A stretch of DNA of 45,309 nucleotides from IMG/VR virus record IMGVR_UViG_3300043313_000945, positions 1-45,309 of that record; one strand, written 5' to 3'. This document shows positions 26,741-42,638 of this stretch, piece by piece. How positions within the stretch are numbered: the stretch's first letter is position 1; each line of letters starts with the position of its first letter. The DNA is from a virus. A program made the translations under genes and the position numbers. A model generated the notes under the pieces. It saw only the letters and a list, made by a program, of their open reading frames with translations, did no database searches and was not told where the DNA came from.

Positions 26741-27940
26741 TCATGACCTACCAAGATCCTGACTCATGGGTGACTCATGATCTTGGACGGTCCGGGCTCG
26801 TGCGAGCGCCTGCCGGGCCCGGTCGAACCGCTGGTCGCTGGAATGGATGTAGCGCCGCGCCGAGCGCTGATCCCGGTGTCCCATCAACTCCATCCGGTCG
26901 TGCTCCGGTACCCCGGCCTCAGCCAGGCGCGTGCCATAGCTGTGGCGTAGATCGTGCGGGGTCGGCTGCGGGTCGGCCAGCAGGCGCGGACCCAGCGGCG
27001 CCTTGACCGGGCCGCGCTGGCCCGGCTGGCGGGTAGGTGGTGGGCCGTCATACGGGCCGTGCAACGCCGGCACCCACACCCGGGCGCGCCACCGCGTGTA
27101 GTCCAGCGGCCCGCCCTTCGGCGCGGTGTACACCAGGCCGCCCGCGCCGGTTGCCAGGACCACCGGGCGCAGCCGCGCCGCGTACCCCGGGCTGATCGGC
27201 ACCGGCCTGAACCCGGCGGACTGCCGCGACCGCGCCCCCTTCGGGTACTCGCGGATCGTCCCGTCGCGCTCCATCACCGGGCCGAGGTGCACCAGGTCGT
27301 GGCGCAGGTCGACCGCTTCCCGGCGCACCGCCGCGATCTCCTCCCACCGGCCGCCGGTCTCGATGAGCCCCTCGACGAACAGCCGCGCGTCGGCGCGGTC
27401 CGGGAACAGGTCATCCAGCCGGGCCAGTAGGAGCAGCTCCTCCTTGGAGGTGAGGACCCGGTCGACGTGCTCCGGGGCCACCGGCGGCTGGACCCGGCGC
27501 GCGGGGTTGTGCCGCACGTACCCGCCATCCACGGCGAGCTCGCACGCGGCCTTGAGGACGTTCAGCGCCGCGATGATGACCCACCCGCCGACCTTCGCCT
27601 CCTCCATGTCATTGACCCACTCCTGCACGTCGGGCTTCAGGATCGTCCCGACCGGCGCGCTCCCCCACCGTGGCTGGACGTGGTTACGCCAGATGCTCGC
27701 GTCGCGTTTGCGGCTGGCCATCTCCAGCCGCCGGGCCCCGGCGTGCTTGGTCCAGATCACCTCCAGCGCGGTCTCGGCCAGCCGGGGGTCGATGAACTCC
27801 CCGCGCGCCACGTTGGCTTCCTGATCCGCCGCCCACTTGTCCACGACGCCCTTGAGCCGGTCGGTCTCGGTGATGCGCCCGACCGGGGTGCGCACGGTGG
27901 CCGCCCACAGGCCGGAGTCGAGCCGGCGTACCCAGGCCAT
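26741..27940 (-). CDS. int: tyrosine integrase
   Basis: The 399-aa site-specific recombinase has an N-terminal arm-binding part, a core-binding domain (about 75-155) and a catalytic domain. Catalytic residues are Arg198 (ETGGRWEEI), probably Lys235, His329-x-x-Arg332 (PHDLRHSYGTRLAE), His355 (LMGHRDQRS) and the nucleophile Tyr364 (ARRYIHSS). It recombines attP with the host tRNA site. ATG 27940 overlaps the repressor stop (ATGA), so the two are made from one leftward transcript. A longer reading frame starting at 28177 is rejected as overlapping the repressor. Confidence 0.93.
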   Translation of the reverse strand: MAWVRRLDSGLWAATVRTPVGRITETDRLKGVVDKWAADQEANVARGEFIDPRLAETALEVIWTKHAGARRLEMASRKRDASIWRNHVQPRWGSAPVGTILKPDVQEWVNDMEEAKVGGWVIIAALNVLKAACELAVDGGYVRHNPARRVQPPVAPEHVDRVLTSKEELLLLARLDDLFPDRADARLFVEGLIETGGRWEEIAAVRREAVDLRHDLVHLGPVMERDGTIREYPKGARSRQSAGFRPVPISPGYAARLRPVVLATGAGGLVYTAPKGGPLDYTRWRARVWVPALHGPYDGPPPTRQPGQRGPVKAPLGPRLLADPQPTPHDLRHSYGTRLAEAGVPEHDRMELMGHRDQRSARRYIHSSDQRFDRARQALARARTVQDHESPMSQDLGRS

Positions 27941-28536
27941 CAGCCGGCCCGGCGGCGCTCGGCGCGGATGAGGCGCTGGATCATCTGCATGCGGCGCTCC
28001 TTGTCGTGCTCGCGTTCGGCGAGGACCGCCTCGATCAGCTCCTGCTTGATGCGCTGCGGGAGGTCCGCGACGAGGATCTCCTCCAGTTCCTCGTCGCGCT
28101 CGCGGGTCGGCTCGGTCGGCGCCGCAACGCCCGGGCGCAGTCCGGCTGCCGCGAGCGCCTCCTCCTCGTCCAGACACAGGATGGCGGCGAAGCGGGCCAC
28201 GACGCCGGCGTCCTCGGGCCGCTGCTGGCCGTTTTCCCAGCGCCAGACAGTGACCCTGTCGACCTTGAGTTGGCGCGCGAGCTCGGACTGGGACATGCCG
28301 CGACCTTCTTGCGCGGTCTCCCGCGCAGCCTTGGCGAACGTTGCCCAGGCGACACGATCTGCGGGCGGGTTGTTGCGCACACGCAAAGGATAGGTGCTCG
28401 GTCGCGGCCTCCGTTCCGGTCGGCCTGGTTGTGGGCTGGCCCTGTTGCGCTCACGACGCAGGGCGGCGCGCTGGCGTTGGTCGCGCAGCTTTTCGCGGCT
28501 GATATGGCTACTGGCAGTGGTCTGGGCCCGTTGCAT
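27940..28536 (-). CDS. XRE-family phage repressor
   Basis: A helix-turn-helix is clear at MSQSELARQLKVDRVTVWRWENGQQRPE, followed by a charged helical C-terminus (RDEELEEILVADLPQRIKQELIE) without a peptidase domain. The start is uncertain. ATG 28536 is seven bases after a -10-like TAGCGT and would be leaderless (198 aa). GTG 28380 is six bases after TATCCT and would also be leaderless (147 aa). Matching inverted repeats lie at both starts. The protein is the natural immunity repressor, transcribed together with int and divergent from the early genes. Confidence 0.78.
   Translation of the reverse strand: MQRAQTTASSHISREKLRDQRQRAALRRERNRASPQPGRPERRPRPSTYPLRVRNNPPADRVAWATFAKAARETAQEGRGMSQSELARQLKVDRVTVWRWENGQQRPEDAGVVARFAAILCLDEEEALAAAGLRPGVAAPTEPTRERDEELEEILVADLPQRIKQELIEAVLAEREHDKERRMQMIQRLIRAERRRAG
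28373..28386. promoter_or_regulatory. repressor operator-like site 1
   Basis: TTGCG-CACA-CGCAA is a perfect inverted repeat. It overlaps the alternative GTG start of the repressor and lies directly beside a -10-like TATCCT on the minus strand. It matches site 2 at 12 of 14 positions. Confidence 0.5.
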
Positions 28537-28546
28537 ACACGCAACG
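28529..28546. promoter_or_regulatory. repressor operator-like site 2
   Basis: CGTTGC-ATACAC-GCAACG is an 18-bp inverted repeat between the divergent repressor and Cro-like genes. Its centre is the same as site 1 apart from two bases. Half-sites GCAAC recur at about 28602, 28640 and 28669 in the start of the Cro-like gene. Confidence 0.55.
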
Positions 28547-28591
28547 CTAGGCCACCGGGACGCTACAGAAATCAACCGAAAGGATGACCCT

Positions 28592-28894
28592 GTGTCGCTA
28601 GCGCAACAGGTCAACTGCGCCTACGGTTATGTCGTGTCCGCAACAGATCAGCAAGCCCCGAGCGCCACAGGCGCAACACCCCGACTCGACGGGTCCGTAT
28701 TCGACGAGCGCTGTCGGCGGATCCTCGGGGACGGGGCCACCGAGCAGGCGAAAGCCGATCTCGTCGGTATCGACAGGGTCAGCCTGCACCGCTACCGCAA
28801 GGGCGAGCTCAACCCCCGACTGGAGGTCGCGCGCCGTTTCGCGACCCGCCTCGACGTCGAGATCGACGTGCTCTGGCCGGACGCCGCCTCATGA
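28592..28894 (+). CDS. Cro-like HTH regulator
   Basis: The 100-aa protein begins VSLAQQVNCAYG and carries a compact HTH (ATEQAKADLVGIDRVSLHRY and KGELNPRLEVARRFATRLD). GTG 28592 follows GAAAGGA by seven bases. It is the first gene of the rightward early operon, divergent from the repressor, which is the position of Cro. It overlaps the next gene at ATGA. Confidence 0.68.
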   Translation: MSLAQQVNCAYGYVVSATDQQAPSATGATPRLDGSVFDERCRRILGDGATEQAKADLVGIDRVSLHRYRKGELNPRLEVARRFATRLDVEIDVLWPDAAS

Positions 28895-29154
28895 CCACCA
28901 ACCTGCTATCCGTTAAGGCCGCCGCGCTGCGCCTGGACGCGTCGCCGATGACTGTGTATCGGCTGCTCTATGCCGGCCTGCTGACGCCTCACCACATCGG
29001 GCTGGGCAAGAGCCGACCGCGCATTCGCATCGCCGAGCCCGACCTCGATGCCTACATCGACTCGACGTACGCCGGCAAGCCGCCCGCCGGTCCCGGCACG
29101 CCGCCCCCGCCTCCCGGCCCGAAGCCTGCCACTCCGAGGAGGGCCGCGTCATGA
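28891..29154 (+). CDS. excisionase-like MerR-type HTH protein
   Basis: The 87-aa protein has an HTH_17/Xis-like domain: LLSVKAAALRLDASPMTVYRLLYAGLL, GKSRPRIRIAEPDLDAYIDS. A Pro/Gly-rich tail follows. Such proteins act as recombination directionality factors or regulators. Its place next to the immunity region makes excisionase likely. It overlaps both neighbours at ATGA. Confidence 0.65.
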   Translation: MTTNLLSVKAAALRLDASPMTVYRLLYAGLLTPHHIGLGKSRPRIRIAEPDLDAYIDSTYAGKPPAGPGTPPPPPGPKPATPRRAAS

Positions 29155-29681
29155 CCGTCGCGACCCGCGACTTCGCCGCCGACATGACCAGCGTCATCAC
29201 GGCCGAGATCGGCGACGGACCGTACGTCTCCGCCGTCATCGCGCTGCACATCGTGGAGAAGCTGCGCGCCACCGACCCCGAACTCCTCGCCGGCTGGCTC
29301 GACCTGCAAGCGGTCGGGATCCTGCGCGATGCGATCAGCACCCGATCGCGGTCGGAGAAGGCGTCGGCCCGTGCGACCCGGGGCCGTTCGGTCTTCGGTG
29401 ACGCTGCCCGCGAGCACGACGATGGGGACTCCACCGCGCTGACCAGCTTCCTCGACGTCCGCTACGTCGTCGACGAGGAGCACACCCGTACCCGGCTCGC
29501 CGAGATGCGTAAGCCCGAACTGCTGTTCGCAGCCGACGACTACCGCCGGCAGGCCAACGAGAACCTGCTCGAAGAGGCGTTCCTCCGCGCGCTGGCCAAG
29601 AAGGTTGGCGCCCGGCAGGTAGCGGATGTCTTCGACGACGACAAGCTCGCCGCGATGTGGCACTCCATCAGCGGCGGCTGA
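29151..29681 (+). CDS. early protein, unknown
   Basis: The 176-aa helical protein has an N-terminal helix-rich region (ALHIVEKLRATDPELLAGWLD), a basic linker and a charged C-terminal region (RKPELLFAADDYRRQANENLLEE). No family is recognised. It immediately precedes the C-rich tract and is part of the early operon. Confidence 0.6.
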   Translation: MTVATRDFAADMTSVITAEIGDGPYVSAVIALHIVEKLRATDPELLAGWLDLQAVGILRDAISTRSRSEKASARATRGRSVFGDAAREHDDGDSTALTSFLDVRYVVDEEHTRTRLAEMRKPELLFAADDYRRQANENLLEEAFLRALAKKVGARQVADVFDDDKLAAMWHSISGG

Positions 29682-29684
29682 CCG

Positions 29685-30218
29685 ATGACCACCCGCCCCG
29701 CTCCAGCCCCTGCCCTCCCAACCCGGCCCCGCGCCTGCCCCCCCGTCCCGACTCCGACTGCCCCATCCTTGCCCGTCCATCCCGTCCCTTTTCGACTGCC
29801 CATGCCACCCCAGACCTGCCCCCGTCAGCCCTCGCCTGTCCCGACTTCCCCCCCCCGCCCCCACCCAGCGCCTCCCGACCCGTCCCACCCGACTACCCAC
29901 CCCAGCCCCGGCCTTGCCACCCCGTCCCACCCGACACCCCGTCCCGACTATCCAGATCCGCCCACTCCGGCCCGCTTCCGACGTCCCGTACCTACCCAGC
30001 TCACGCCTTCCCATGTCTTCCCGACTGCCCGTGCCTACCCCTCCCTGCTCGTCCCAGCCCGACATGCCTTGCCTGCCCCCCACCGTCCTCGCCATCCCGC
30101 CCCAGTACGACAAGTCACCCCGAGCCCGCCCCTCTCGCGCCCTCCCCGACGACCCCAGCCGCCCCCTGCCACGGCCTTCCGGCCCCGCCCGCCCCGACTA
30201 CCCAGGAGTCATAGATGA
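29685..30218 (+). other. C-rich, G-poor 0.5-kb tract, possibly a proline-rich ORF
   Basis: By hand count, 29701-30180 is about 57% C and 16% G on the plus strand, while neighbouring genes have nearly equal C and G. All three forward frames are open for most of its length. One frame starts at ATG 29685, three bases after the previous stop, and ends at 30218 in an ATGA overlap with the next gene, giving a 177-aa protein about one-third proline with no domain. G is scarce at every codon position, which points to selection on the RNA or DNA itself. Degenerate units like CCCGTCCC and CCCGACT recur. Confidence 0.55.
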
Positions 30219-30880
30219 GCGTGTTTGAGAAATACCGCGACGAGATGTTTCCGTACCGGTTCACCGGCCAACTCCACGTCGGCGTCATCGCTGGCGGTAC
30301 CCCGACTGACCCGAAGGTCGCCGAGGGCTGGCTGAAGACGAAGCTCGGACTGGACAAGGACGACCTGATCCGGGAGAAGGTCGCCGAGGTCATGGTGGAA
30401 CGCGGCCTGACCGCCGACGAGGCCACCGCCGCCGTCAACGAATCCAAGCACCTCAACGGATTCAAGCGCGACGAGAACGGCCTCTACATCGAGGGCCGGC
30501 AGTTGAAGGCCGCGCTGAAGGAAGCGGCCAGCATCGCCGTCGCGGCCGGCAAGCTCACCTCGCGCGGGTGGGGCAAGACCAACAAGGGTTTGCTCTCATA
30601 CCTCGCCGAGCATGTCTTCGTCGTCGAGGACCGGCTGTACCTCGGGGTCGCCGAGGCGTCCGGAATCGCGCAGCGGTTTGTGCACACCTTCCGTGGTACC
30701 GGGATCCAGTACGAGGAGTACGTCGAGGACGCGAAGGTCGACTTCACTGTCATCGCCGATCACGACTTCGCCGCGAAGGAATGGGCCGCGATCTGGACGT
30801 GCGGGGAGCAGAACGGGATCGGCGCCTCGCGCTCGCAGGGTTTCGGCCGCTACGAGGTCACCCGGTGGGACAAGTCATGA
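30215..30880 (+). CDS. RAMP-like (Cas7/Csm3-type fold) phage protein
   Basis: The 221-aa protein has two RAMP-type hallmarks. YIEGRQLKAALKEAA (91-105) corresponds to the IPGSSLKGALR-type motif of Cas7/Csm3/Cmr proteins. GIGASRSQGFGRY (201-213) is a glycine-rich loop GxGxxRSxGFG at the C-terminus. Between them are GWGKTNKGLL and FRGTGIQYEEYVEDAKVDFTV, a strand expected before the final helix of the fold. AGGAG before ATG 30215 supports the start. No cas gene or CRISPR array occurs in the window. The assignment rests on motif recognition only, but I believe related proteins occur in other phages. Confidence 0.55.
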   Translation: MSVFEKYRDEMFPYRFTGQLHVGVIAGGTPTDPKVAEGWLKTKLGLDKDDLIREKVAEVMVERGLTADEATAAVNESKHLNGFKRDENGLYIEGRQLKAALKEAASIAVAAGKLTSRGWGKTNKGLLSYLAEHVFVVEDRLYLGVAEASGIAQRFVHTFRGTGIQYEEYVEDAKVDFTVIADHDFAAKEWAAIWTCGEQNGIGASRSQGFGRYEVTRWDKS

Positions 30881-34383: not shown

Positions 34384-34715
34384 ACACCTGCCGGGGCTGC
34401 CCCACCCGCTGGACGGGGCTGACCACCTCACACTGCGCCGGATGCCACGAGACGTTCACGACCGTGTCCAACTTCGACCGGCACCGGCGCGGCGGGGAAT
34501 GCGTACGCCCATCCTCGGCCGGGCTGATCGCCTCGCAGCGCGGCGGCAACGCGGTCTGGCACCAGCCGGCGGGGAAGTACGACATCGTCTCCGACCGCGA
34601 GTTCTGGGGAAACCTCCCCGGACCGGCGCTGCGCGGCGTCCAGACGGTGCGCACGGTGCTCGACGCGGACGAGCTGGCCGAAATTCTCGAGGAGAAGAGG
34701 GAGGCGGATCTGTGA
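34380..34715 (+). CDS. FDxHR-type zinc-binding protein
   Basis: The 111-aa protein begins with CRGCPTRWTGLTTSHCAGCH, followed by TTVSNFDRHRRGGEC. This is the pattern of the FDxHR putative zinc-binding domain of actinophages. GTG 34380 overlaps the previous stop, and it overlaps the Cas4-like gene at GTGA. Probably a nucleic-acid-binding accessory; the role is not known. Confidence 0.72.
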   Translation: MNTCRGCPTRWTGLTTSHCAGCHETFTTVSNFDRHRRGGECVRPSSAGLIASQRGGNAVWHQPAGKYDIVSDREFWGNLPGPALRGVQTVRTVLDADELAEILEEKREADL

Positions 34716-35581
34716 GGATCGTCAAGAAGCAGAGCGGTCGAAACCACTGGTACGTCGACCTCGACAACGGCGGCGCACGCGTACCCGGCGTCACCACGTT
34801 GACCGGCAACGGCCTGCCGAAGCCCGCCCTCCTGAACTGGGCCGGCGACGCCACCGCCGCATACGCCATCGACAATTGGGAAAAGCTCGCCGGACTCCCG
34901 CTGTCCGAGCGGCTCAACCTGATGAAGAAAGGCCGGTACGAGAGCACCGACAAGGCGAAGGCGAAGGGTACCGCGGTCCACAAGCTCGCCGAGCGGCTCA
35001 TCGCCGGGGAGCGGGTCACCATCCCCGACGGCCTCGACGGCTACGTCAGCGCCTGCGTGCGCTTCCTCGACGAGTTCGACCTGCGCGCCGTGCACGTCGA
35101 AGCCGTCGTCTACTCCGAAACCCACCGCCACGTCGGCACCCTCGACCTCATCGGCGACGTACGCCTGCCGGACATGCCGGAGTACGACCACATCCCGCGC
35201 GACGAGGACGGCTACTCCCGTGGCCTGTTCGACTGGAAGACCAGCAAGTCCGGGATCTTCGGTGAGGTCGCGTTGCAGCTGGCCCCGTACCGGCACTCCG
35301 AGTTCATGATCCTGCCCGACGGCGCGGTCATCGACATGCCGGGCGTCGACTTCTGCGCCGGTATCCACCTGCGTCCCGACGGCTACACCTGCGTCCCGCT
35401 GCTGTGCGAGGACGACACGTACCGGGACTTCCTGTACGTCCAAGAGGTCGCCCGGATCGTCGACGGCCTGCGGGACCTGGTCGGCGACCCGATCGTCCCG
35501 CCGAACGCGTCCACCTACGTGCTGACCAAGGCCGGCGCCGACGAGGGCTGGACCGAAGGCCCGGACGGGATGCAGCCATGA
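34712..35581 (+). CDS. Cas4/RecB-like PD-(D/E)XK exonuclease
   Basis: The 289-aa nuclease has the motifs of the family: KGTAVHKLAERL (His90), HVEAVVYS (Glu130), GTLDLIGDV (Asp145), FDWKTSKSG (Asp174-x-Lys176) and LQLAPY (Gln189). Those residues bind metal and cut DNA. The four-cysteine iron-sulphur set of Cas4 is not evident. It precedes an Erf gene with an ATGA overlap, so the pair probably makes single strands and anneals them during phage recombination. Confidence 0.82.
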   Translation: MRIVKKQSGRNHWYVDLDNGGARVPGVTTLTGNGLPKPALLNWAGDATAAYAIDNWEKLAGLPLSERLNLMKKGRYESTDKAKAKGTAVHKLAERLIAGERVTIPDGLDGYVSACVRFLDEFDLRAVHVEAVVYSETHRHVGTLDLIGDVRLPDMPEYDHIPRDEDGYSRGLFDWKTSKSGIFGEVALQLAPYRHSEFMILPDGAVIDMPGVDFCAGIHLRPDGYTCVPLLCEDDTYRDFLYVQEVARIVDGLRDLVGDPIVPPNASTYVLTKAGADEGWTEGPDGMQP

Positions 35582-41137: not shown

Positions 41138-42638
41138 GCCACTCCACACGTACACCGGGCACCCGAGCGGCCTGGACGGTGCCTGGTGTAGCTGCGAGGG
41201 AAGCAGCGAGGCAACCTGTACGGCGACCAGTCCTGAGCCCGCTGTCCCGGACCTGCGCGAGGTGGCCGCCCGCGCGGTCGCCGAGGACCGCGCGAACCGC
41301 TGGGGGTACGCCGCAACGCTGGACCCGCCGGAGCTGGACGCGTTCATCGCCAGGCAGGTCGCGGACTTCAACGTGCTGCTGGACGTCGCTGTCATCCTCG
41401 CCGCCGTGCTGCCCCTGCACCGCGGGCAGGTACTCGACGAGGCGGCCGACCACCTCGCCGGGTTGGCGTTCGGCGCACTCGGAGATGCGGGAGGCGGACC
41501 CGTCGCGGTTCTCGGCGAGCGCGCCGACACGGTCCGAAGCCTGGCCGCAACCACCCCCGCCACCGTCTGCCGGTGCGGTCACGCGTTCGCCAGCCACGAT
41601 GCCGGGGAGTGCTTCGACGGCGAGCAGTGCCCGTGCTCGTGGCAGGAGCCAGCCGCGAAGGTACCGTCCGGCCCGCGCAGTTCGACGGAGAGCTCCGAAA
41701 CTGGGTCGGTGGTACCTGAGGTAGGGGTAGCGGCTTCCGATCCGCCTGAGGCGGACTCCGGTGGTCGGGGCATCTCGTGGGCCGAAGCCGCCGACATCGT
41801 CCAGGCCGACGCCCGCGAGATGGAGGCACGCCGGGAAGCGCTCGCCGAACGGGACGCCGCCGCGTACGCCGCCGTCGGCCTCGGGGACGAGCCGGGCCGG
41901 ATCGCCGACCTCGCCGGCACGAGGATCCACCTCGTCTCCCGCGAGACCCTGCGGGCCGCCGAGGCCGAGCGGGACGAGGCCCACAGCGCTCTCGTCGCAA
42001 CCCGGCTGCTGGCCGCCGAAACGATGGCCGCTCTCCGCACCCGGATCCTGGTCGCGCTCGGTCTGGAAGACGACGGGCGTACCCAGATGACCGAGTACGT
42101 GGATGCTCTCGTCGCCGAGCTGGACAGCGCACGCCGCCGGCAGATCGTCGTCGAGGATCTCCAGGTCGACGTAGAGGCCGAGCGGGACCGGCTGGCCGAG
42201 ACCGTAGGCCAGCTACAGGTTGAGCGGGACCGGCTGGCCGAGACCGTAGGCCAGCTACAGGTTGAGCGGGATGACGCGCTGGCGCTGGTCGCCGCGTGCA
42301 CGACGACACAGCAACTCCGGCTGGCCGAGACCGTACGGCGTCTGGAGCCGGTCATCGAAGCGGCGAAGGCGTGGCGGGCTGAGCATCGGACACTACGCGG
42401 CGGGGCCACCATGCACGACGCGGCTGTCGGGCTTATCAGCGCCGTGGACGCCCTGTCCGACGCCGGCCCGCCGCACCGCTGCCAGGTCCCCGGCTGCCCC
42501 GGGCACTCCTCGCGGCTGCTGTTCTGCGGCACGACAAAGGCCGCCCCGGTCCTCATCACCGGTACGGGCCAGTCCCGCGACCCGCACGCGCCCGGGCTGG
42601 TCCGCGAGGACGAGGAGGGCAGCGATGCCGGCACCTGA
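41124..42638 (+). CDS. large coiled-coil accessory protein with zinc-type cysteines
   Basis: The 504-aa protein has two short Cys/His modules (GAWCSCEGSSEATC near 25, and VCRCGHAFASHDAGEC with QCPCSW near 150-170). A long coiled coil (about 215-420) contains a perfect duplication of 14 residues, and the C-terminus has HRCQVPGCPGH. It looks assembled from accessory-protein modules, similar in kind to its upstream neighbour. ATG 41124 overlaps that gene by 14 bases. Confidence 0.5.
   Translation: MTSPEPLHTYTGHPSGLDGAWCSCEGSSEATCTATSPEPAVPDLREVAARAVAEDRANRWGYAATLDPPELDAFIARQVADFNVLLDVAVILAAVLPLHRGQVLDEAADHLAGLAFGALGDAGGGPVAVLGERADTVRSLAATTPATVCRCGHAFASHDAGECFDGEQCPCSWQEPAAKVPSGPRSSTESSETGSVVPEVGVAASDPPEADSGGRGISWAEAADIVQADAREMEARREALAERDAAAYAAVGLGDEPGRIADLAGTRIHLVSRETLRAAEAERDEAHSALVATRLLAAETMAALRTRILVALGLEDDGRTQMTEYVDALVAELDSARRRQIVVEDLQVDVEAERDRLAETVGQLQVERDRLAETVGQLQVERDDALALVAACTTTQQLRLAETVRRLEPVIEAAKAWRAEHRTLRGGATMHDAAVGLISAVDALSDAGPPHRCQVPGCPGHSSRLLFCGTTKAAPVLITGTGQSRDPHAPGLVREDEEGSDAGT
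42180..42263 (+). repeat. 42-bp perfect tandem duplication
   Basis: 42 bases are repeated exactly at 42180-42221 and 42222-42263, with the first bases (GAGCGGGA) of a third copy following. They encode ERDRLAETVGQLQV twice, two heptads of the coiled coil, so the length of the coil can change without loss of frame. Confidence 0.9.

Follow-up and report, generated by a model that had tools for sequence, protein, structure and literature searches.

VIPR systems, described in a 2026 preprint (bioRxiv 2026.04.26.720920, PMC13142463), consist of a phage-encoded RAMP protein (Vipr), an accessory gene and RNAs composed of YNNGG repeats. These RNAs read DNA through their NN pairs, skipping one base between pairs, for the most part the codon wobble position; the targets reported are competing phages, prophages and other VIPRs, with lysogeny regulators among the genes concerned (PMC13142463). 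VIPR has been proposed as an ancestor of CRISPR, and experiments were presented for the systems of SUSP1 and of a Pseudomonas fulva prophage; the work has appeared as a preprint, and the functional claims are those of its authors (PMC13142463). In a literature search, this was the one description that fitted the combination of a RAMP gene, an array and an accessory gene found in the window, that is, the whole stretch of 45,309 nucleotides analysed here (IMG/VR record IMGVR_UViG_3300043313_000945). Very probably, the locus encodes an RNA-guided system of the VIPR kind that one virus uses against another. More specifically, a probability of roughly 0.88 is assigned to the reading that it is a phage-borne VIPR system, in which a Vipr-type RAMP, array-encoded guides and an accessory factor act on the genes of rival phages. 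The evidence computed here comprises the RAMP fold, the array and the 5-nt period on which it is built, the joint occurrence of array, partner gene and RAMP gene, the homology of this RAMP with the SUSP1 Vipr, and the matches to targets when units are read by the one-base-skip code. The window would represent a member of a kind of system already described in the preprint, possibly with a distinct scaffold and accessory gene.

The closest described system is the type II VIPR of Escherichia phage SUSP1, which was located in KT454805 (vipr 28474-29061, vap 28031-28471), with GGY/NN tracts on the gene strand. Both loci combine a single phage-borne RAMP of ~200 aa and a short partner gene with non-coding arrays of 5-nt repeats, each containing two variable bases, and in both, as judged for the window family from sequence matches, the pairs are read with one base skipped at the wobble position, with targets including lysogeny regulators and other VIPR systems. 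The scaffold differs, being NN-GGY in SUSP1 and NN-S-Y-C on the gene strand of the window array (NN-G-R-S on the antisense). SUSP1 encodes vrRNAs of ~100 nt with structured tails, whereas the window array has 5-9 repeats per 10-nt head, with a head every 33-49 nt. The partner protein of the window family, which has no PDB fold match, is a further difference. Alignment of nine SUSP1-type Viprs with the actinophage RAMP family by hhalign covered 149 columns with P = 3e-6 and a probability of 88% (not above 95%), and the comparison with the SUSP1 Vipr as a single sequence was weak. YNNGG tracts were found beside several of the nine SUSP1-type vipr genes. L219 (Mycobacterium phage LittleE, 2172-2366 and 3663-3948) and L232 also contain clear YNNGG tracts, with hairpin-like sequence behind several of them. 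These tracts adjoin Vipr relatives annotated only as 'hypothetical protein', so that annotated records of actinophages appear to include type II-like VIPRs.

The RAMP protein and its family

The original prediction had assigned the product of the 221-aa ORF (Table 1) to the RAMPs by eye, from two motifs. The ORF and both motifs are real, with an AGGAG sequence at 30204-30208 just 5' of the ORF, and the motifs rank among the best-conserved parts of the family. In a 64-member alignment the top-conserved residues include G94, R95, K98, A99, K102 and E103 in the first motif and G201, G203, A204, R206, S207 and G211 in the glycine loop, of which G201, G203 and G211 are invariant across all 64 members. 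Profile searches assigned the protein to no Pfam family and no meaningful PHROG family, and a sequence search of the PDB gave no clear match to any chain. In NCBIfam, a sub-threshold Cas6 match was confined to the glycine loop (E = 0.017; TIGR01877 score 15.6 bits against a curated cut-off of 58.65), with Cas6 matched in 4/21 family members and Csm4 in 2/21. The likeness to Cas6 lies in this C-terminal glycine-rich loop, the only part that matches, whereas the fold is nearer to Cas7.

Table 1. Coordinates of features in and around the window's RAMP locus
Feature	Position	Strand	Remarks
Partner gene (vap candidate)	29151..29681	+	176 aa; all-helical model; near RAMP gene in 58 loci
Non-coding guide-like array	29681..30205		11 parsed units; C every 5th base on + strand; head CCGAC[T/A]NCCC
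Array unit, 9 NN	29793..29841		TG AT AC AG TG CC AG TC TG; antisense of HELGHLV[I/M]H of ImmA/IrrE; common to L002, L009
Array unit, 8 NN	30060..30107		first six NN same as L004 unit 7296; no convincing target
Array unit, 9 NN	30147..30194		no exact IMG/VR match
Terminal bare head CGACTACCC, without tract	30195..30203		abuts ribosome-binding site of RAMP gene
vipr-like RAMP gene	30215..30880	+	221 aa, ATG start; predicted Cas7/Csm3-like fold with G-loop
Candidate target site in vipr gene, codons KVAEGWLK	30314..30336	-	16/16 to L009 unit 7924, skip at wobble
Conserved segment YIEGRQLKAALKEAA (RAMP helix)	30485..30529	+	residues 91-105; family alignments
Glycine-rich loop GIGASRSQGFGRY	30815..30853	+	residues 201-213; family alignments; weak Cas6 profile match, residues 176-214

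An AlphaFold2 model built from a 64-row family alignment (pLDDT 88, pTM 0.83) contains an RRM/ferredoxin-like core resembling known RAMP structures. The fold search that the original prediction had proposed was carried out with Foldseek against the PDB; the type VII Cas7 was the best match (E = 1.3e-7), followed by Csm3 (3.6e-7), and the best 50 rows were all Csm, Cmr, Cas7 or gRAMP chains. As judged from this model, the product is a RAMP of the Cas7/Csm3 type, and the assignment by eye was correct. As the TM-scores against PDB RAMPs are ~0.5, it is a distant relative rather than a Csm3 orthologue. The expectation of RNA binding is likewise upheld as probable. Csm3 and the type VII Cas7 share with it the predicted fold, the G-loop and a likely RNA-binding filament but employ a 6-nt register, as opposed to 5 nt here, and no CRISPR array or cas genes were recognised near the window gene. 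In agreement with the original prediction, the window's ORF list, read by eye, and a tandem-repeat scan revealed no cas operon beside the RAMP gene, nor any cas10, cas1 or CRISPR-type repeats that would indicate a type III system. A similar predicted fold is found in A0A8S5R426, a phage protein from Siphoviridae sp. ctcMb1 annotated as 'Cas system-associated RAMP superfamily protein' (E = 8e-10), although its identity to the window RAMP is 18%.

Relatives in IMG/VR numbered 21 loci by single-sequence search and 74 by profile. A single relative was found by tblastn in annotated phages (Microcystis phage Mae-JY09, 34%) and one in 84,980 species genomes, on a Streptacidiphilus carbonis contig; the prophage of S. 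carbonis NBRC 100919 is locus L076. The resulting 76 loci, comprising IMG/VR viral contigs, one phage isolate and one bacterial contig, show that the family is carried mainly by phages and proviruses, outside cas loci.

The array, its strand and its neighbours

The original prediction had described the RAMP as 'stand-alone', which does not hold: a periodic array directly 5' of the gene (29681-30205) and a conserved partner gene had been overlooked, and both are linked to the RAMP gene across the family. The ~520 nt between the end of the partner gene (29681) and the RAMP gene contain no convincing gene and are composed of 58% C and 17% G, with GC skew down to -0.57. The autocorrelation of C at lags 5, 10, 15 and 20 averages 0.18, compared with 0.00 (sd 0.02) in sequences simulated from the first-order composition of the array, which also served as the control for unit counts. 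Each unit begins with a recurring 10-nt head, CCGAC[T/A]NCCC, followed by pentamers of the form NN-S-Y-C, with 5-9 repeats behind each head; unit lengths favour 5n+3 and 5n+4. When 97 units from ten phages were aligned on the shared head, C occupied positions 9, 14, 19, 24, 29 and 34 in 88-98% of units, with a pyrimidine before the fixed C and two free bases after it. The unit parser placed all 11 of its units inside the array and none elsewhere in the 45 kb on either strand, against an average of 0.54 and a maximum of 4 in simulated sequences. An Rfam search of the array gave no relevant match, scans around it found no promoter or terminator, and the shared units provided too few pairs for substitution rates at NN and scaffold positions to be compared. 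Several arrays, amounting to >1 kb of guide-like sequence in total, are present in L044, L045, L056, L060 and L066, and in some of these phages they occupy both strands. By eye, a stem-loop seems to mark the head-side end of the arrays in L013, L044 (-), L047 (-), L067 and L068; in L013, L044 and L047 this end reads CCGG...CCGG followed by TACACGACTACCC. The stem-loop might serve the array transcript as a leader or tail.

This layout of repeat, spacer and repeat, with ~10-nt heads, preferred unit lengths of 5n+3 or 5n+4 and a bare head at its end, recalls crRNA handles and spacers, and, coupled with the RAMP fold, it could suggest a degenerate or novel CRISPR-Cas type formed of a phage-borne array and one Cas7. 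However, the repeats are too short and too degenerate, the spacers, in contrast to those of CRISPR, have a C at nearly every fifth nucleotide, and no cas1, cas2 or cas10 was recognised among the window ORFs read by eye. Targets are, moreover, read with a skipped base, and sequence homology to the SUSP1 Vipr (hhalign P = 3e-6) is present. A CRISPR-Cas type is accordingly very unlikely.

As to which strand of the array gives rise to the RNA, the indications point in both directions. The scaffold reads S-Y-C on the gene strand and G-R-S on the antisense, in register with the GG of GGY; an RNA from the gene strand is favoured by codirectionality with the genes, and one from the antisense by consensus homology to GGY. 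RNA folding of 25 arrays found the C-rich strand to be less structured than the other, but this asymmetry does not decide the strand, since it is also seen in type II tracts, where the RNA corresponds to the G-rich strand. The antisense head GGGTAGTCGG resembles the SUSP1 tail GGGTAGTTAG, but other type II tails differ and the likeness was set aside. Tentatively, and at well below even odds, the actinophage family may constitute a VIPR type beyond the seven described, distinguished by an SYC/NN (or GRS/NN) scaffold, short CRISPR-like heads that would split one transcript into many guides of 5-9 repeats, and a helical accessory without a known fold.

Most of the 76 loci have period-5 tracts adjoining the RAMP gene, 5' of it in the actinophage group and 3' in distant relatives such as the Microcystis phage and L065-L075; a few of the tracts are on the opposite strand. 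The density of parsed units is 16-fold higher within 2.5 kb of the RAMP gene, and 50 of the 59 loci that are flanked on either side contain at least three, most of the remainder containing a period-5 tract. The partner protein, modelled with a pLDDT of 94 as all-helical, has no match in searches of PDB folds, Pfam or PHROG. Directly 5' of its gene, a small HTH_17 protein (28891-29154; excisionase/regulator-like, phrog_66) is encoded, which adjoins an integrase-like ORF (26741-28177, -) in an arrangement reminiscent of temperate-phage lysogeny/early regions. Downstream of the locus, an exonuclease (34709-35578; phrog_298, E = 5.8e-36) and the ORF after it, which is ERF-like by eye, form a phage recombination cassette. 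A perfect 42-bp tandem repeat of 2.2 copies (42180-42271) lies within a coiled-coil-like ORF.

Candidate targets under the one-base-skip code

The code was examined by joining the NN pairs of every unit with 0-3 wildcards between pairs. In ~1 Mb of related loci, allowing at most one mismatch, seven units matched under the one-base rule, compared with 2, 3 and 3 under the other rules. A further comparison of the skip rules, over 1.2 Mb, is weakened by the choice of its loci, which had been retrieved by means of the one-base-skip pattern itself. Two long matches under the one-base rule were exact in the related loci. The first, L009 unit 7924 (TTxAGxCAxCCxTCxGCxACxTT), matches 16/16 positions in the vipr genes of the window and of six other loci. 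The second, L010 unit 7680, matches 18/18 positions of the P-loop RGPHGLGKS in a terminase-like ORF of L007, a reading of that ORF based on the motif, and 17/18 in its L018 counterpart. In addition, L013 unit 9836 matches a RecT-like ORF at 17/18 positions, in frame.

Unit 29793 is common to the window, L002 and L009. With its three variants merged, its one-base-skip pattern was found in >120 IMG/VR contigs among the matches listed, compared with 7 matches for the reversed pattern, although HELGHLVxH is so strongly conserved that any guide touching the motif yields many matches. Most of the listed matches translate, on the opposite strand, to HELGHLVM, HELGHLVL or near variants, the sequence at which ImmA/IrrE peptidases have their active site. 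A search of 150 Streptomycetaceae genomes with the exact window unit gave 5 matches, each in an ORF that encodes the ImmA/IrrE motif, and both of the two ORFs checked by Pfam were Peptidase_M78; the backward and two-base-skip controls gave 0 matches each in the same genomes. The versions of the unit fit HELGHLV[IM]H in the window, HELGH[IM]V[IM]H in L002 and HELGHLVLH in L009, and all three occur among the matches. For most window units no target was identified. Two other patterns with 18 fixed bases (units 30147 and 29686) had 0 matches in IMG/VR, and the 18 exact matches of unit 30060, which lie in unrelated genes, were taken as chance.

These matches bear on the possibility that the RAMP binds a periodic RNA in a non-guide role, for instance to autoregulate the mRNA that encodes it, or with the RNA as a sponge or scaffold, the NN bases being free to drift. 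Such a role would suit the position of the array, which in most close relatives sits in the leader of the vipr gene, and the weak structure of its C-rich strand. Against this, the NN pairs of unit 29793 match a conserved phage gene far above the control (>120 listed versus 7), their changes between phages fit natural protein variants, and L009 unit 7924 matches the vipr genes of rivals exactly but that of L009 itself at only 14/16 positions. A non-guide role is thus considered improbable. The original prediction had also raised interference with a type III system of the host, in which case the phage RAMP would serve as an anti-CRISPR or decoy that poisons the host effector. A Csm3-like fold would be compatible with this, but the RAMP is conserved together with a dedicated array and a partner gene, and the array units have phage-gene targets and lack CRISPR repeats. 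The suggestion, the least likely of the explanations considered, found no support; the one-base-skip code points instead to RNA-guided recognition of rival phage DNA.

Proposed mechanism and implications

In the favoured VIPR reading, the array would be transcribed into vrRNAs of 5-nt repeats, in each of which three scaffold bases would be gripped by one RAMP subunit, leaving two bases (NN) free. The RAMP would polymerise along the vrRNA, with the upstream helical protein as a putative accessory factor, and the NN pairs would read double-stranded DNA with one base skipped between pairs, usually at the codon wobble position. The bound complexes would most likely block transcription of genes in competing phages and prophages, for example those for ImmA/IrrE (a protease that inactivates phage repressors), the terminase or a rival's vipr. 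Expression of the RNA, formation of the ribonucleoprotein and transcriptional repression as the outcome are proposed here by analogy with the preprint. Cleavage of the ImmR repressor by ImmA sets off the downstream lytic genes (PMC6872733); silencing of ImmA would therefore be expected to keep a rival prophage dormant.

The window family extends the code of VIPR to a different and widespread lineage of temperate actinophages and provides an independent computational test of the one-base skip. Concrete candidate targets can be named from sequence alone: the ImmA/IrrE active site, the P-loop of a terminase and the vipr genes that rivals carry. Should the unusual scaffold be that of the gene strand, it would also indicate that RAMP filaments are able to change their base specificity. 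Inter-phage targeting of this kind also becomes testable in laboratory actinobacteria.
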